A DNA stretch of 55,553 nucleotides from Acidobacteriota bacterium (GTDB lineage: Bacteria > Acidobacteriota > Terriglobia > Terriglobales > SCQP01), in assembly GCA_004299485.1 (NCBI GenBank), contig SCQP01000006.1, forward strand, positions 1 through 55,553, read 5' to 3'. The notes beneath the pieces are model-generated. The model was not told the DNA's origin, did not search any database, and saw only the letters and a list, made by a program, of their open reading frames with translations. Position numbers and translations under genes: made by a program. Positions 404 through 52,813 of the stretch are shown here, one piece after another; the stretch's first letter is position 1; each line of letters begins with the position of its first letter.

Positions 404-479
404 AGGGGCATAGGTTTAACGGCTAGACCAGCGGTCTCCAAAACCGCGAGTGGGGGTTCGAATCCCTCTGCCCCTGCCA
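404..479 (+). tRNA. trnW: tRNA-Trp (anticodon CCA)
   Basis: Cloverleaf read by eye. Acceptor AGGGGCA (404-410) pairs with TGCCCCT (469-475). D-stem GGTT/GACC. Anticodon stem GCGGT/ACCGC encloses the loop CTCCAAA, giving anticodon CCA. T-stem GGGGG/CCCTC surrounds loop TTCGAAT. Discriminator G476 and an encoded CCA tail at 477-479. tRNA-Trp upstream of secE-nusG is a conserved arrangement in many bacteria. Confidence 0.97.
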
Positions 480-3170: not shown

Positions 3171-3267
3171 TCAGTTTTCAGTTCTCAGTCGTCAGTCGGC
3201 GGTTACGCCCGAACGTCCCCGTTCGGGCGCCCGTTCCGTACTGAAAACTGATGACTGAATACTGGCG
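3171..3267 (+). repeat. Composite heptamer element between rplJ and rplL
   Basis: Left array of 7-bp units: TCAGTTT, TCAGTTC, TCAGTCG, TCAGTCG (3171-3198). Core: GGCGGTTACGCCCGAAC, loop GTCCCC, then GTTCGGGC, a perfect 8-bp stem. Right array: ACTGAAA, ACTGATG, ACTGAAT, ACTGGCG (3240-3267). The core begins with the same GGCGGTnACGCCCGA as the element at 299-401, so these are two members of one composite family. Confidence 0.88.
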
Positions 3268-3287
3268 ACCATTTTTGAGGAGAAACA

Positions 3288-8108: not shown

Positions 8109-8174
8109 TCAGCGATCAGCCGTCAGCGATCAGCCAGCACAGAACGGCTGAAAGCTGACCGCTGATTGCTGATA
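8109..8174 (+). repeat. Facing heptamer arrays between rpoB and rpoC
   Basis: Left array: TCAGCGA, TCAGCCG, TCAGCGA, TCAGCCA (8109-8136). Right array: GCTGAAA, GCTGACC, GCTGATT, GCTGATA (8147-8174). The arms are roughly complementary and can form a stem-loop. They occupy half of the 133-nt rpoB-rpoC spacer. Same architecture as 299-401 and 3171-3267 but without the GC-rich core. Confidence 0.85.
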
Positions 8175-8231
8175 GCCCCTTGGCCGGAGAGACAAAACCT
8201 CAGGAGCCCCATCCTCCAGGAGATCGCAAAT

Positions 8232-17000: not shown

Positions 17001-17861
17001 TTGCGAGTACAAACGCAGCAGCACCCGCGTGGGTCGCGGTGCCTGCACGTAGGTCACGGCAAAGTCGATGCCATCCGTGCCCCAGTCCAGCGGGAAATGC
17101 ACGCCGTTCCCGCTGCTGGTGAAGGCCTGCGGCCGCCGCCCGGCTGCGCTTTCCGGACGCATGGCAATCGGAAACGTCTGGTCAAAGCCCAGGTTCTCGT
17201 AATCGCCAAGCGGCCCCCAGAGCTGCCAGTGCGGCAATCGCCCGGCGAGCTGCAGCGCCCGCGTCTCGGTCAGTGCCAGGCCGGGCGCATGGACCGCCGC
17301 CAGTACCGAGCGCCCCAGCATGTAGCTGGTCACCGGATCCGCCAGCGGTTCCTGCAACGTGCGCTCCAGGCTGGGCAGCGCGTCCAGCAACTGCCGTCCC
17401 TGATTCTCAAGCTGTCCGCTCAGCGCCCGCACCGCCAGCTCCGTAGCCACGTCATTGGGTGCCGCCCGCGTCAGCCGCAGCGCCGCCTCCAGCATGGCGC
17501 GATCCGAACCCCGGCTATAGGCGGCCACAAACCGGTCGAACTCCATCTCCGGCGATTCATCCTGCGTCCGCGCCAGCTCCTGGTACGCCTCCGCCTTGGC
17601 CTTGGCATTGCCGTAGAACAGCTCGATCCAGATCGCCTCCGCCCGCCCCCGTTCGCCGCGCGCCTGCGCCGCCGCCAGCGCCTGCTGATAATGTCCCGCC
17701 TCCACCCGCGGCAGCCGGTCCAGCAAACTCGTCCGTTGCGCTGCCGCAGGCAGCGCCAGCAACATGACCAGCAAAGCCGCGGCTATCCCCGCGCCTCTGG
17801 CGCCCCATCCGTTGCCACGCACGACTGATGACTGATGACTGATGGCTGATGGCCTCTTCAC
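14028..17861 (-). CDS. DUF3857/transglutaminase-like TPR protein, catalytic Cys replaced
   Basis: 1277 aa from GTG 17861, which has GGGAGG upstream and overlaps the TGA of the preceding gene (GTGA). A signal peptide (GIAAALLVMLLALPAAAQ) follows an in-frame heptamer repeat that encodes AISHQSS. Then come a long TPR-type helical region, a DUF3857 domain (about 690-840) and a transglutaminase-like fold (about 920-1010). Aligned with its neighbour's GDCKDK, this protein reads DRSGNR, so Ser955 replaces the catalytic Cys, and the FDHAIV His position reads FQYPLV. It is probably a non-catalytic periplasmic paralogue. It is translationally coupled to the active copy upstream. Confidence 0.85.
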   Translation of the reverse strand: MKRPSAISHQSSVVRGNGWGARGAGIAAALLVMLLALPAAAQRTSLLDRLPRVEAGHYQQALAAAQARGERGRAEAIWIELFYGNAKAKAEAYQELARTQDESPEMEFDRFVAAYSRGSDRAMLEAALRLTRAAPNDVATELAVRALSGQLENQGRQLLDALPSLERTLQEPLADPVTSYMLGRSVLAAVHAPGLALTETRALQLAGRLPHWQLWGPLGDYENLGFDQTFPIAMRPESAAGRRPQAFTSSGNGVHFPLDWGTDGIDFAVTYVQAPRPTRVLLRLYSQASSEILINGVTVLRNDRRSSYVPATATAAVELAAGWNRVVLKLGGEASRDFDLMLRPAAGGELQNAATLPAGAALAAAPKLAPAPVTLAGWSQERLKSHPRDAIALWVQGLRRMQDEDPEGARVALLAASKLAPDAAPVWLDLAQSNGNLTDASQSWAAAEVERTARKALEVAPEALRAYDRLGHVYESEGKTTQAAEQFAHCTDKGYADCDWSQFHLAAGKNWRPEAATALEHALAESGSDWGGIASGLEFYSNLGDAAKVAQWMRVLQADPRAAAALGAYQLRHGDAAGAAQSLATAIRQDPSSANLQRERIEALLAAGEITQAATAAAAAMEKFPYDWRLAETADDVALRQGVQPGVSALQATDAHRNLLRQQADFLAGNRFWTPWYHSARSIIANAPDASEYPSASSLLVFDQMVNRINPDSTQDQYIHQIYKVLNAAGVQQIGEVTSIPQGAELIRLRTIKANGRRVLPESIRNLTDVTMPDLAPGDYIEIEFVQHTGDSQIIPNTLDDSQFFVFNSSKQPYNYSEYVVLTPPNYPLLVDQERFPAAPTTQLMPDSYTAHTWLVQKTRILVTEPLMPPEENLVPKVWISTPREWSQISRYYADHDFAVRRTTLEMRQKAAELTAGKANDVAKANAIFQWVAANVQPGPGSILSPARQFFTDRSGNRVAVFLGLLSAAKVPCQLVLARAVTDDSSIRIPSIFQFQYPLVHVGSGADASNPASGWYDLMGRFAHLDYIAPGIRGGMAIVASANGRAGFMHLPAFESPLDGLVVSVTGAVADSGDAKIHLQMEFRGPAGEQVRHELASLPDSSLPQIYQQLLLASYPNASATGGAIENRNAKDKPLIFSIEATVPNFINVDGNTPGSGWDIQHLTGAVGVQRRYAPLPFRKEPLLINGDSFEQTNVTLTLPARFGQANLPKAANISNGFGRFDSSFVQTGGTLAFHRTLFLKANRIAPADYGSFRAFAEAADAQDRLQLTGKIHGAGH
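17824..17851 (-). repeat. Heptamer array translated in a signal-peptide n-region
   Basis: Four 7-bp units on the plus strand: ACTGATG three times, then GCTGATG. Read on the minus strand in the frame of the DUF3857 gene they give SAISHQSSV. The GTG start with its GGGAGG site is upstream of the array, so the array should be translated. Confidence 0.85.
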
Positions 17862-20800
17862 TGCCCACCTCCCGTCGTCAGGCTCACGCTCCGCCCCAGC
17901 GCCCCGTCCACCTGCGCCCAGAAGCTCCGGTAGGCCGGATACTCCGCCGGCGTAATCAGCGACTTCTTGATCTCGATCCGGCTGCGCAGCGTCAGCGTGT
18001 TGCCGTTGACCGAAGCAACGGCCTGAAAATCCGCGAAGGGCTGATTCCGGTTGCTCACCGGCGGCAGCGACCGCGCTGCGAAACCGGCCGGCAGCGCCAG
18101 GTGCATCTGTTCCACCAGAATTTCCGGCGGGCCTGACAGCAGGTCCGACGTCCTCTGGTTCAGCGCTGCCAGCCGCGGCAGCCACGAACGCGGTACGATC
18201 TGCCGCGGCACCAGCAGGGTGTTCCCGTTCACGGTGGCGAAGTTAGGGATGGTGCCCTCAAACTCAATTTCCAGCGGCTTATCCCAGGCGTGCGCGTTGG
18301 TCACCGTCGCCGAGTTTACGCTGATGCCCGGCAGCCGGTCGTGCAGCATCGCCTGCAACGCCCCCGCCTGCCGGTCGGGAATTTCCATCGCTGCCCGGTA
18401 CAGGGGCGCATCGCCGCCGGCGAGCTCCAGGTTCATGGCAAAGTGCAAGTTTCCCTGCGCATCGAGTTGCCCGGTCAGCGATCGCTCCGTCACATTCGTC
18501 GTGGGCGCCAGCTCCGGCGTCACCACCGGCGCCAGCGCCGCCATTTTATTCGCCGGCGCCGGGTCCGCCCCGAGGTCTGCTGCGACCGGAACCCGCAGCA
18601 CGAACGCCCGCTGATCGCCCGCCGGCAGCTCGTGCGTGCCGTTGTATTCCGCCGTGCCGTCCAGATACAAATTCAGGTTAGGCACGTAAACGATGGCGTG
18701 GTCAAAATCCGCCACCGAGGGAATCGTCGCGTCCACCAGCCCCAGATCGCGAATCCGCACCAGCACGAAATCGGCCTCGATACCCGCTTCATGCAGCATG
18801 GCGATCAGCAGCGACGCCTTATCCTTGCAGTCGCCAAACCGCCGGTGAAACACCTGCGTCACCGGATACGGCCGGTAGCCGTGAATGCCGAACTCCAGCG
18901 CCACGTAGTGCGTGTTCTGGATCACCCATTGGTAAATGGCGTCGACCTTCTCCGCCTCCGTCGTCTTGCCCTGGATCAACTCCCGCACCGTCTGCCGGAT
19001 CTGGCTGTCGAGCACGAAGGTGTTGCGGATCAGGTGCCGGTACCAGGCGCCGAACTGATCCCAGGTCTTGAACTCCGAAACCGCGACGTACGGGTCACGC
19101 TCGATATCGGGCGTCGCCAGCGGCTCGCTCACCTGAGCCGGAAGATTGCGCGCGCTCCAGCGATACACCGTCTGGCCGCCGGTGGTCGCGACCGTATGCT
19201 CACCCGCAAACCGCACGGCGTGGAAGTACAGCGGCTTGCTGGCCGGCGAAATCACCACGTACTGCTGGAACAGCGTAGGCGAGCTGCTGCCGAACGAATC
19301 CACGGCGCCGTAGTAATCACCGTAGAGCGATTCCAGCGTAGTCGGCAGCACGCGGTAGGCGATCTCGACAAAATCTCCTGCCCGCAGCGCCGGCATGACG
19401 ACATATTTGTTGCGTACGTTATAGAACGTCTCGTAGCCCACCGACTGGCTGACGGGCTGATCGCCTGCCTGGGGCGCATCCGCCGTGCTCCCATCCGCAT
19501 GCACCACGTGCGCGGAAAGAAAATGCACTTCCTCGTTGTCCGGATCGTAGGTCACTGGGTAGACGCTCAGCGCATTGGCGCCGCTGTCGTTGTTCACGCG
19601 GAAAATCTGCTGCACGTAGCGGCCGGTGTTGCCCGACGGAAAAATATTGGTCACGTTCGTGTCTGCCAGCACCGCCACCGGTCCGCCCTCCAGCGTCTGC
19701 TGCTGGCTCGCCGGCAGTGCCTTATAGGCGGCAATGGTCTTGGTCAAATCCTGCATATAGGGCCGCTCGAAGCTGGCCTCGACCGCGGCTTCGCCGCCGC
19801 GCGCCAACTGCAGCCGGTCGCGCAGGCTGGCGTCCTGCGGGTTCAGGTTCAGCGCCTCCTGCCAGGCGGCCACTGCGGCCGCATGATGCCCGAAATGCCG
19901 CTCGATCTCACCTTGCGCCACGTGAAACTCGGGCGCGTCCGGCGCGAGCTTCACCGCATCGCCAATCCGCGCCAGCGCCGCCGGCCCGCGCCCCAGCCCC
20001 GCCAGCGCGCGCGCCTCCACGTCCAGCAAATGCGGTTGCGGGCCGACCAATCGGCTCAGCCGCTCGACTGTCGCCAGCGCCGCGTCGTTGTCGCCGCTGC
20101 GCTGCAGCAGGTCGGCCAGATCCAGTCCGGTGTGCAAATTCGCCGCATCGGCGTTGAGCCCTGCCTGCAGCCACTTCTCCGCCACGCGGAACGGTCCCGT
20201 GCGCCGCAGCGTGATTCCCACCGGCTGCGCCACCTCAGCCACGGTCATTTCTCCCGCTGCCTCCAGTGCCTGCGCCCAGGCCAGCGCCTGCGGCCGCAGC
20301 CCAACATCGGCGTACACCTGCAGCATCCCCACCGCCGCCATCGGCGCCTTCTGCATCGCCGCCGCTGAGGCAATCGCTCCCTTGTCCGTCGCCATAAGTC
20401 CGTTTGCCGGCACATCAGCCGACTGCGGGTTTAGGGCAAGCCAAAAATCACTGCGCGCCGGCCAGTACGCTCCCCGGTTAAGCTCGATGAATCCCAGGTC
20501 CAGGCGCGCCTGTCCGCGATAATCCGCGCCCAGGCCAGACTGCTCCAGCAGTTGCTCCAAATACTGATAGCGCCGGCTCGTGTCCTGATCGTGCTCCTCA
20601 AAATCAATCACCGCTTGCGCATTGTCAGGAGCTGCGGCAATCGCGTCGAGAAACGCGCTGGTGTCGCTGTGATCGCCGGTATTGAAGTTCTGCTTCTGCG
20701 CCAGCACCCAGGCGTAATCGAGCTTGCCCGCCGGCGTCGCGGCAGCCGCTTTTGCCAGCTCGGTCAAATCCCGCACCTGGACCGCCGCCGGCTGCTGGCT

Positions 20801-21805
20801 GCCGACTGCTGACTGATGACTGATGACTGATGACCTGACTTCGTGCGGCACATCGCTCGTCTCCAGTTCCAGCGGTTTGCCCTCCGGCGTGGTAATGCGC
20901 AGCGCAAAGCTCCAGCCGCCGGTTTCTCCATCGCCGACTTTCGCCAGAATCTCGTTCCAGCCCGCCTGCAATTGCGCGCCGACGGCGTGCTGATCGAAGC
21001 CGAAGCTGGGATGCGCGCCCTGCTCGGTGAACTGCAGTTGTCCGTTCACCCATAGCCGCGTCGCGCCGTCATCCCGCAGCCGCAGCGCCACCGGCTGCGC
21101 CTTGTCGCTCCGCACCCAGCTCACCGCGTATGCCGAGGCGCTCTGCGCGGGACTCAAGAATGCTCCCAGATTCATGGATCCCAGCGTTGCGCTGTAGGGG
21201 AGCACGCGCCAGCTCACCTGCCGCTGCTTGCCCTGATACTTCGCGGTCAGGTCAATCCCTTTTTCTGGGCCCTCCGCGGTCGTAATGGCTCCTGCCGAGG
21301 AATTGTCGAACGGCCCCACCACGCGCCACGCCTCGACCGTGCCTAGCCGCTTCCAGTCCGCTGCGGCCTCTTCCGCCCGTCCCGACCGCAGCGCCACTGC
21401 CGCTTCCCGCGAGGTGATCTCCGCCTGCACCAGCGGATCGAGTTGCGCTTCCGCCGCCACGCGTAGGTCGGGCTGGGGCACCCGGGGCCCCCAACCCGGC
21501 CGAGCGTCAAGCGGGTGGCGTGGCGCAGCCACGCCAGGCCCCGCGCCAGTCAATAGTTTCGTCCAGACGCCCTGCTGCTGCTCCAGCGGCAGCAGCCGCA
21601 TGAGCCGTCCGATGCGGTACACGCAAATCAGTTTGGCCACCGGCCCCTGCGCCGCCGTAAACGCCTGCGCTTCGCTCTGCACCCGCTCGGCCGGCGTTGA
21701 GATGCCAACTTGGGCAAGCGCAGCTCCGCCCAGCAGCAAGGCCAGGCAGGCGATCAGGAGCGGGCGGCGGGGCGCGAAAGAGCGTTTCACCCGGGGTTGA
21801 AGCAT
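17858..21805 (-). CDS. DUF3857 and transglutaminase-like domain TPR protein
   Basis: 1315 aa with a signal peptide (LLIACLALLLGGAALAQ). An N-terminal beta-sandwich and TPR region (about 30-640) is followed by DUF3857 (about 670-860) and a transglutaminase domain with RRFGDCKDKASLLIAMLHEAG (Cys993), FDHAIVYV (His) and LYLDGT (Asp), so the catalytic triad looks intact. Expected to act in the periplasm; the substrate is unknown. Two dispersed repeats are translated inside it: a GC-rich family C copy near residues 84-112 and a heptamer array near residues 325-334 (SSVISHQSAV). It is first in a three-gene minus-strand unit, with TATAAT 9 nt before the ATG. Confidence 0.88.
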   Translation of the reverse strand: MLQPRVKRSFAPRRPLLIACLALLLGGAALAQVGISTPAERVQSEAQAFTAAQGPVAKLICVYRIGRLMRLLPLEQQQGVWTKLLTGAGPGVAAPRHPLDARPGWGPRVPQPDLRVAAEAQLDPLVQAEITSREAAVALRSGRAEEAAADWKRLGTVEAWRVVGPFDNSSAGAITTAEGPEKGIDLTAKYQGKQRQVSWRVLPYSATLGSMNLGAFLSPAQSASAYAVSWVRSDKAQPVALRLRDDGATRLWVNGQLQFTEQGAHPSFGFDQHAVGAQLQAGWNEILAKVGDGETGGWSFALRITTPEGKPLELETSDVPHEVRSSVISHQSAVGSQQPAAVQVRDLTELAKAAAATPAGKLDYAWVLAQKQNFNTGDHSDTSAFLDAIAAAPDNAQAVIDFEEHDQDTSRRYQYLEQLLEQSGLGADYRGQARLDLGFIELNRGAYWPARSDFWLALNPQSADVPANGLMATDKGAIASAAAMQKAPMAAVGMLQVYADVGLRPQALAWAQALEAAGEMTVAEVAQPVGITLRRTGPFRVAEKWLQAGLNADAANLHTGLDLADLLQRSGDNDAALATVERLSRLVGPQPHLLDVEARALAGLGRGPAALARIGDAVKLAPDAPEFHVAQGEIERHFGHHAAAVAAWQEALNLNPQDASLRDRLQLARGGEAAVEASFERPYMQDLTKTIAAYKALPASQQQTLEGGPVAVLADTNVTNIFPSGNTGRYVQQIFRVNNDSGANALSVYPVTYDPDNEEVHFLSAHVVHADGSTADAPQAGDQPVSQSVGYETFYNVRNKYVVMPALRAGDFVEIAYRVLPTTLESLYGDYYGAVDSFGSSSPTLFQQYVVISPASKPLYFHAVRFAGEHTVATTGGQTVYRWSARNLPAQVSEPLATPDIERDPYVAVSEFKTWDQFGAWYRHLIRNTFVLDSQIRQTVRELIQGKTTEAEKVDAIYQWVIQNTHYVALEFGIHGYRPYPVTQVFHRRFGDCKDKASLLIAMLHEAGIEADFVLVRIRDLGLVDATIPSVADFDHAIVYVPNLNLYLDGTAEYNGTHELPAGDQRAFVLRVPVAADLGADPAPANKMAALAPVVTPELAPTTNVTERSLTGQLDAQGNLHFAMNLELAGGDAPLYRAAMEIPDRQAGALQAMLHDRLPGISVNSATVTNAHAWDKPLEIEFEGTIPNFATVNGNTLLVPRQIVPRSWLPRLAALNQRTSDLLSGPPEILVEQMHLALPAGFAARSLPPVSNRNQPFADFQAVASVNGNTLTLRSRIEIKKSLITPAEYPAYRSFWAQVDGALGRSVSLTTGGGQ
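20805..20832 (-). repeat. Heptamer array inside the DUF3857 coding sequence
   Basis: Four 7-bp units ACTGCTG, ACTGATG, ACTGATG, ACTGATG. On the minus strand in the host frame they encode part of SSVISHQSAVGSQQ, a low-complexity linker with no counterpart in the paralogue at that position. The array lies well inside a long uninterrupted ORF, so translation is certain if the gene is expressed. Confidence 0.85.
21471..21556 (-). repeat. GC-rich hairpin repeat (family C, copy b), in frame
   Basis: Shares GGGGCCCCCAACCCGG, AAGCGGG, TGGCGCAGCCACGCC and CCGCGCCAG-CAAT with the smc copy at 47251-47350. It is read from the opposite strand in the DUF3857 host as PGVAAPRHPLDARPGWGPRV, with no stop. The family therefore tolerates translation on either strand. 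Confidence 0.7.
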
Positions 21806-36478: not shown

Positions 36479-36997
36479 ATGGGGAAAAGGTGTGTCCTGA
36501 CCCTGCTGGGTCTGGCCTTGGCCGTGGTTCTGCTGGCGGCAGCTTGGAGGAGCCCTGAGCGCCAGCGGGCGGACCCTGCCGGGAATCGAAGCCCGCACTC
36601 CAAGCGACCAACGGGAGCGACCAGGGCAAAAAGTGGCGAGCCACTGGCGCAGCAGCCAGGACGCCGTGCCTTGGTCGAGCAGGCGTTCCAGCAGGTTCTA
36701 GGCCGTTCGCCCGGCCCAGACGAGCTGCGCTATTGGCTTGCCGTGCCGGCGAACGACCCCCGCGTGCAGACCGAGCAGGCGCTGGTGCGCCAGCAGCGAC
36801 TTTTTCTGGAGCGATTTCCCGCAGCCCGCGCCGCCGTCATCCAGCGCGCGTTTGCCGCTGCCCTGCACTGCACGCCGAACGCGGCCGCCCAAGGCGCGTG
36901 GGATTTGCTGATCGAGACCAGCGGCACGACTTACGCCGAACTGGTCACCCAGCTCCAGCATCTCGGTCCCGCCGCGCGCACGCAGTGTGCCCACTGA
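36479..36997 (+). CDS. Small exported DUF4214-like protein carrying an in-frame 111-bp repeat
   Basis: 172 aa from ATG 36479; no clear Shine-Dalgarno. The N-terminal signal or anchor is VLTLLGLALAVVLLAA. It is followed at once by 37 residues (WRSPERQRADPAGNR...AKSGEP) encoded by the dispersed 111-bp element. The C-terminal part (about 65-165) has QAFQQVLGRSPGPDELRYWL, resembling the LGR-PD--GL-YW core of DUF4214. Without the element the protein would be about 135 aa. The element falls right after the hydrophobic segment. Confidence 0.7.
   Translation: MGKRCVLTLLGLALAVVLLAAAWRSPERQRADPAGNRSPHSKRPTGATRAKSGEPLAQQPGRRALVEQAFQQVLGRSPGPDELRYWLAVPANDPRVQTEQALVRQQRLFLERFPAARAAVIQRAFAAALHCTPNAAAQGAWDLLIETSGTTYAELVTQLQHLGPAARTQCAH
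36534..36644 (+). repeat. 111-bp dispersed element (family D, copy 1), in frame
   Basis: 111 bp from TGGCGGCAGCTTGGAGG to GTGGCGAGCCAC. Internal inverted repeat GCTTGGAG (36542-36549) / CTCCAAGC (36598-36605); the end GTGGC-GA-GCCAC is a small palindrome. It differs from copies at 48300 and 52323 by about two to three substitutions and no indels. Length 111 = 37 codons, so it preserves frame. Confidence 0.95.
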
Positions 36998-48295: not shown

Positions 48296-48299
48296 CGCC

Positions 48300-48410
48300 T
48301 GGCGGCAGCTTGGAGGAGCCCTGAGCGTCAGCGGGCGGACCCTGCCGGCAATCGAAGCCCGCACTCCAAGCGACCAACGGGAGCGACCAGGGCAAAAAGT
48401 GGCGAGCCAC
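48300..48410 (+). repeat. 111-bp dispersed element (family D, copy 2), intergenic
   Basis: Same 111-bp sequence as 36534-36644 and 52323-52433, with GCGTCAGC instead of GCGCCAGC as a private change. It starts 4 nt after the DHFR-like stop and ends 9 nt before the ADOP permease stop, so it makes up nearly the whole convergent spacer. Confidence 0.95.
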
Positions 48411-52033: not shown

Positions 52034-52813
52034 ATGCCTACCGCGTGGAGTTACGCCGTGGCTGCCACCGCGCAGGCGATCGCCGAGCCGGCGCGCGTGC
52101 GCATGCTGGACCTGCTCCTCGATGGCTCCGCCCGCACCGCAACTGAGCTGGCGCTGGCTGGCGGCGTCACGCCCTCCACTGCCAGCACCCACCTGCATCG
52201 CCTCGAATCGGCCGGTCTGGTCACGCGCGCCGTGCAGGGCAAGCACCGGTATTTTCGCCTCGCCGGCGCCGGTGCCGCCCGCGCACTGGAAGCGCTCGGC
52301 GTGCTTGCCGGCGCTCCGCAGCTGGCGGCAGCTTGGAGGAGCCCTGAGCGCCAGCGGTCGGACCCTGCCGGCAATCGAAGCCCGCACTCCAAGCGACCAA
52401 CGGGAGCGACCAGGGCAAAAAGTGGCGAGCCACCTCCGGCGGCGCGCGTTCCCGATTCCTTGCGCCTGGCCCGCACCTGCTACGACCACATCGCCGGCCG
52501 TCTCGGCGTCGCGCTGCACGACCGCCTCCTCGCCCGCGGCTGGCTTGCCGCCTACCAGCTCACCCCCGCGGGCCGCGCCGGACTGCACTCGTGGGGCGTG
52601 GATATCGCGATCACGTCCCCGTCTCGCCGCCGCTTCGCCTTTGCCTGTCTGGACTGGAGCGAACGCCGTCCGCATCTGGCCGGAGCCCTGGGCTCGGCCT
52701 TACTCGCCGCCTGTCTCCGGCAGCGCTGGCTGCGGCGCGAGCTCGATTCCCGTGCTCTCGAAATCACCCCTGCGGGCCGCCGCCGTTTCGCCCAATTCGG
52801 AATCTCGCTTTAG
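52034..52813 (+). CDS. ArsR-type winged-helix regulator with in-frame 111-bp repeat
   Basis: 259 aa starting MPTAWSYAVAATAQAIAEPA. The N-terminal winged helix (residues 5-95) has RVRMLDLLLDGSARTATELA and TPSTASTHLHRLESAGLVTR, with wing GKHRYFRLAG. Residues about 97-134 are encoded by the 111-bp element (WRSPERQRSDPAGNR...). The C-terminal domain (about 138-259) has DSLRLARTCYDHIAGRLGVA and CLDWSERRPHLAGALGSALL. The two native domains match long ArsR-family regulators of about 220 aa, so the element sits in the interdomain linker. Convergent with rpiB (2-nt gap). Confidence 0.85.
   Translation: MPTAWSYAVAATAQAIAEPARVRMLDLLLDGSARTATELALAGGVTPSTASTHLHRLESAGLVTRAVQGKHRYFRLAGAGAARALEALGVLAGAPQLAAAWRSPERQRSDPAGNRSPHSKRPTGATRAKSGEPPPAARVPDSLRLARTCYDHIAGRLGVALHDRLLARGWLAAYQLTPAGRAGLHSWGVDIAITSPSRRRFAFACLDWSERRPHLAGALGSALLAACLRQRWLRRELDSRALEITPAGRRRFAQFGISL
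52323..52433 (+). repeat. 111-bp dispersed element (family D, copy 3), in frame
   Basis: Same 111-bp unit as 36534-36644 and 48300-48410; the private change is CAGCGGTCGG for CAGCGGGCGG. It is read in the same frame as copy 1, giving an identical peptide apart from one residue in this stretch (RQRSDPAG versus RQRADPAG). Confidence 0.95.

Follow-up and report, generated by a model that had tools for sequence, protein, structure and literature searches.

A young, probably mobile 111-nt repeat of an Acidobacteriales genome that lies almost always in the translatable direction when inside genes

Among bacteria, Rickettsia and Wolbachia, organisms with reduced intracellular genomes, are the best-known carriers of mobile repeats that lie in frame in conserved proteins. 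The Rickettsia palindromic elements (RPE; Ogata et al. 2000) are selfish in-frame repeats of alphaproteobacteria, reported to form long stem-loops and carry terminal inverted repeats of ~12 bp (PMC2229807; PMC3767692). Our search of open-access papers found no such repeat reported from Acidobacteria. Here we analyse a 111-nt repeat in a 55,553-nt stretch of DNA (the window), which is contig C6 of a 3.3-Mb Acidobacteriales genome. As a sequence-only reading of the window had noted, the repeat is present at 36534-36644, where it forms an exact unit. It recurs in the window in two more copies at 97-98% identity. The features of the window are listed below.

36534-36644, plus strand: copy 1 of the element, within ORF 36479-36997; sense, phase 1 (frame s2)
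36479-36997, plus strand: host ORF of copy 1, a hydrophobic N-terminus followed by a DUF4214-like domain that starts directly after the element
36530-36533, plus strand: target motif C-NNN of copy 1, immediately 5' of the element, C at -4
36538-36542, plus strand: 5' arm of stem P1 (GGCAG), pairing with 36576-36580; A-U/G-C compensatory change between subfamilies
36576-36580, plus strand: 3' arm of stem P1 (CTGCC), pairing with 36538-36542
36633-36644, plus strand: terminal 3' hairpin GTGGCGAGCCAC, last four bases CCAC; TTTTT comes next on the minus strand
48300-48410, plus strand: copy 2, in what is otherwise a 13-nt gap between the convergent genes RibD_C (end 48295) and MacB/FtsX (end 48420, minus strand)
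52323-52433, plus strand: copy 3, within ArsR-type regulator 52034-52813; sense, phase 1
52034-52813, plus strand: host ORF of copy 3, an ArsR/HTH_5 regulator; insert absent in relatives
48296-48299 and 52319-52322: target motifs of copies 2 and 3, the same motif as for copy 1
404-476, plus strand: tRNA gene
368-401, 3238-3271, 8145-8178, 17822-17855 and 20789-20836: degenerate short tandem-like repeats of type CTGATGACTGATGACTGATG

Copies 1 and 3 are indeed read in the same sense frame, and their peptides, LAAAWRSPERQRADPAGNRSPHSKRPTGATRAKSGEP and LAAAWRSPERQRSDPAGNRSPHSKRPTGATRAKSGEP, are one residue apart. The first copy had been placed behind the hydrophobic N-terminus of a DUF4214-like protein. 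The position is right; the DUF4214 likeness is weak in Pfam (E 0.1-0.2), yet the part of this 172-residue ORF that follows the element has homologues among tandem domains in other parts of the genome and in one relative.

A 39-nt piece of the element matched the genome 121 times at three or fewer mismatches (44 forward, 77 reverse; the reversed control gave none), which sets a lower bound of at least 121 near-identical copies. The genome counts below are based on 113 near-full copies gathered from the sequence stretches around the copies. The element inserts as an exact unit, which begins with TGGCGGCAGC, ends with GCGAGCCAC and measures 111 nt in 108 of the 113, on the 3' side of a C-NNN motif: a C stands at -4 in 89% of the 108 own-genome copies, followed by three free bases and then the element (C-NNN^), and a pyrimidine (C or T) is favoured directly after it. 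The element's own last four bases, CCAC, obey the same rule. No target duplication is detectable, a search over many offsets having returned weak deviations only, and there are no terminal inverted repeats beyond a terminal match of ~4 bp; on both counts we rejected a MITE moved by a DDE transposase. A short form of ~41 nt (GCGACCAACGGGAGCGACCAGGGCAAAAAGTGGCGAGCCAC) also occurs alone, with the 5' boundary of the full element and mostly with C at -4 (L138:4478-4525; L113:2495-2545; L149:2768-2818; L146:2467-2510; L148:2503-2552; L148:8934-8979; L093:2433-2477).

Empty sites are found in relatives. For five proteins (AMP-ligase, M24 peptidase, VPS10-like protein, the GT2 glycosyltransferase and the ArsR regulator) the orthologs can be aligned to the left and right of the junction and have no insert, and in the first four the alignment with the closest ortholog shows a 37-residue gap; insertion was therefore precise. 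Alignments at the ThiE and disulphide-reductase sites are less clean because orthologs vary there. The sequence-only reading had placed insertions in permissive linkers or behind signal segments, which is partly right. Glycos_transf_2, Pyr_redox_dim, AMP-binding, Peptidase_M24 and TMP-TENI domains span junctions, so that insertion is not limited to linkers. One long VPS10-like gene holds two copies (C12:34264 and C12:36362) in different sense frames.

The element was found in 9 of 200 genomes sampled from the order, all in the same family, and in none of the viral contigs searched. Related subfamilies in the genus and family were amplified separately, each genome having a main one of its own. 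These main subfamilies measure 111 nt here, 108 nt in relative G004 (this type is carried by Acidobacteriales bacterium CRAIB_MAG75) and 114 nt in relative G003. Sharp ends and the C at -4 recur in both relatives, in 86% and 95% of copies respectively. All three lengths are multiples of three, although single indels between subfamilies span one or two bases and reach multiples of three in sum. Full-length model matches of other sizes (81, 144 and 153 nt) are likewise divisible by three, which degenerate copies are not in every case. This whole-codon pattern is suggestive and no proof, since independent subfamilies are so few. An older subfamily, of G003 type, shares its genome with the young one (L109:1855-1965, L113:5515-5631, G000:C14:204815-204928).

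How do the copies lie with respect to genes? Because the repeat itself could bias gene calls, all copies were excised before a self-trained Markov-model caller was run (87% coding; not a curated annotation), and the junction positions were scored. Copies in coding sequence are much scarcer than under random landing, with 26 of 113 junctions (23%) in genes against 86% for random C-anchored sites, and almost all are sense and open. The sense to antisense ratio is 24:2, where the random sites give ~51% sense (p 1e-5). One of the two antisense sites has a doubtful score of 1.7, and the other lies 24 nt from the gene end. Two genic sites fall in a doubtful ORF at C1:522 kb; with this ORF left out and high-scoring genes only, the ratio is 19:1. 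Counts of 6:1 in G004 and 3:1 in G003 bring the three species to 33:4 (33/37 sense). Judged from these gene models, a copy within a gene is almost always in the translatable direction and would lengthen the protein by 37 residues, conserved enzymes included.

The frame is another matter. The two coding copies of the window had suggested confinement to one of six frames, and genome-wide the sense phases 0, 1 and 2 are used 8, 10 and 6 times. As frames s0 and s2 occur about equally, the frame shared by copies 1 and 3 amounts to a coin toss and is largely coincidence. The data support selection for an open reading direction and do not support a bias toward a single frame. Phase 2 reads frame s1, in which most copies carry a TGA. 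Three phase-2 copies have no TGA, and the three that retain it lie 43-133 nt from the gene end, where it cuts off the last 14-44 residues. A check of the other frames for stop codons, proposed in the sequence-only reading, finds the TGA of sense frame s1 and antisense frames that are mostly stop-free. Stop codons thus do not explain the rarity of antisense genic copies. The peptides read in antisense are more hydrophobic, the sense peptide being hydrophilic, and the minus strand of the element in this genome begins with a hairpin followed by TTTTT, resembling a terminator; both features are plausible reasons against antisense copies in genes.

In most copies, the element strand also coincides with the G-poor strand. 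GC skew, measured in the stretches around the copies, is negative on the element strand in 84 of 113 (p 2e-7), and in 32 of 39 where gene orientation is mixed; within contig C16 the element orientation switches at ~198 to 222 kb. The lagging strand is usually the G-poor one. RNAalifold on 30 sequences returned P1, a second stem (P2) and the 3' hairpin; three pairs show compensatory changes. The structure rests solely on this covariation between subfamilies, because single-sequence folding was no better than for shuffles, and the changes follow subfamilies and so count as few events. The stems are short (4-5 bp), no long stem-loop was seen, and the element has no match in Rfam.

What kind of entity would behave in this way? 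Probably it is a mobile DNA repeat of Acidobacteriales, non-autonomous and amplified not long ago, with selection acting as a filter on the copies in genes. Landing would be mostly frame-blind, and antisense or frame-breaking copies would be removed by selection. Sense copies would be tolerated because 37 codons keep the frame and the peptide is hydrophilic; antisense copies may be disfavoured through their more hydrophobic peptides and through the hairpin-T5, which could terminate transcription. The strand bias, the lack of duplication and the C-NNN^ rule together suggest single-strand transposition. With less certainty, we infer that the element may move at the replication fork in the form of a structured single strand, like IS200/IS605 and REP sequences, with an enzyme supplied in trans.

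One observation goes beyond a simple account by selection alone. Among 50 cases of an antisense gene that ends on the 3' side of the element, there are 17 in which the element end falls at -1 to 2 nt relative to the stop codon, ~12x the null of 2.8%; own-genome examples are C2:44824, C2:122335, C14:212193, C1:373525 and C1:192518, with 12 others, and two relatives show the same adjacency in ~5 of 18. Truncation of these genes by insertion was dropped as a candidate, as several of the C-termini look natural when judged from their sequences. We entertain, as a tentative reading, a single-strand-mobilised repeat lineage that would be moved by an enzyme class not yet recognised and would be adapted to coding DNA, with whole-codon main subfamilies, two or more sense frames that are open and hydrophilic, and antisense copies with a precise tendency to lie at stop codons.

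A doubtful candidate is a repeat derived from REP/RAYT or IS200/IS605 sequences and moved by a Y1 (HUH) transposase. Missing target duplication, strand bias, structured ends and a short 5' target would all suit it, as would a terminal hairpin whose final CCAC obeys the C-NNN rule, and some relatives, G002 and G003 included, do have Y1 proteins. However, a search for the Y1 transposase domain (PF01797), with positive controls, gave no match in the own, 98.8%-complete genome, nor in G001 or G004; the 5' end has no REP-type hairpin tagged by GTAG or GTGG; and the frequent location in genes is unlike REP. IS110 was likewise not found in the own genome.

Insertion directed by transcription or translation, for instance via mRNA, is unlikely. 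It would yield the sense orientation of genic copies without selection, even though antisense frames are open, and could explain a peak at antisense stop codons too sharp for tolerance alone. However, no sense preference is seen in intergenic copies that lie between co-directional genes (22 in sense, 25 in antisense), orientation tracks GC skew even amid mixed gene orientation, and no reverse transcriptase (PF00078) was found in the own genome or the genus, a result on which we also rejected a derivative of a group II intron or retroelement. Very improbable is a domesticated coding module, in which a functional 37-residue peptide would have had its copies spread by selection in one frame: nearly all genic copies are sense and open and the subfamilies of 108, 111 and 114 nt divide by three, but two sense frames with unrelated peptides are used about equally, 87 of 113 copies lie outside genes, the peptides have no Pfam match and the host proteins are unrelated enzymes. 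Least probable of all is that the element is spliced from mRNA like an intron or skipped by the ribosome, leaving host proteins without the peptide, since for all its conserved stems and its location inside conserved catalytic domains, gene-internal copies shun the TGA frame unless the TGA is lost or the gene end is near, and splicing does not require main subfamily lengths in multiples of three.

The mobile repeat that we favour resembles several known systems. Non-autonomous repeats of ~100-150 bp, some of them in frame within ORFs, are known as the Neisseria Correia/NEMIS, ERIC and RUP MITEs, but these end in inverted repeats and duplicate their target (PMC2229807), neither of which was found for the element. 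With IS200/IS605 and TnpA-REP (RAYT) systems it shares the lack of target duplication, a short 5' target and structured ends, and its GC-skew bias is of a kind that lagging-strand insertion would produce (PMC6006769); in contrast, this genome has no Y1 transposase, the target is one base at -4, and the element often lies in genes. RPE are 105-146 bp long and occur in many copies, both in frame within conserved protein genes and between genes (PMC2229807; PMC3767692). Insertion in frame into unrelated conserved protein genes, by which RPE are recognised, is seen for the element as well. It differs in having no long palindrome or terminal inverted repeats and in its host, which belongs to Acidobacteriales and not Rickettsiales. 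We found no report for RPE of a C-NNN^ target, a GC-skew strand bias or frame-neutral main subfamilies (PMC2229807; PMC3767692). As the palindrome with its terminal inverted repeats is absent and the two were compared by description only, we do not file the element as an RPE; RPE may serve as the closest working analogy. For annotation, caution is advisable, since unrelated proteins here have a peptide in common because of the repeat alone. Beside the Rickettsia elements, the repeat adds a further, independent case in GC-rich Acidobacteriota, and its more than 100 young copies, target rule, empty sites and three related subfamilies turn peptide tolerance and repeat movement into testable questions.
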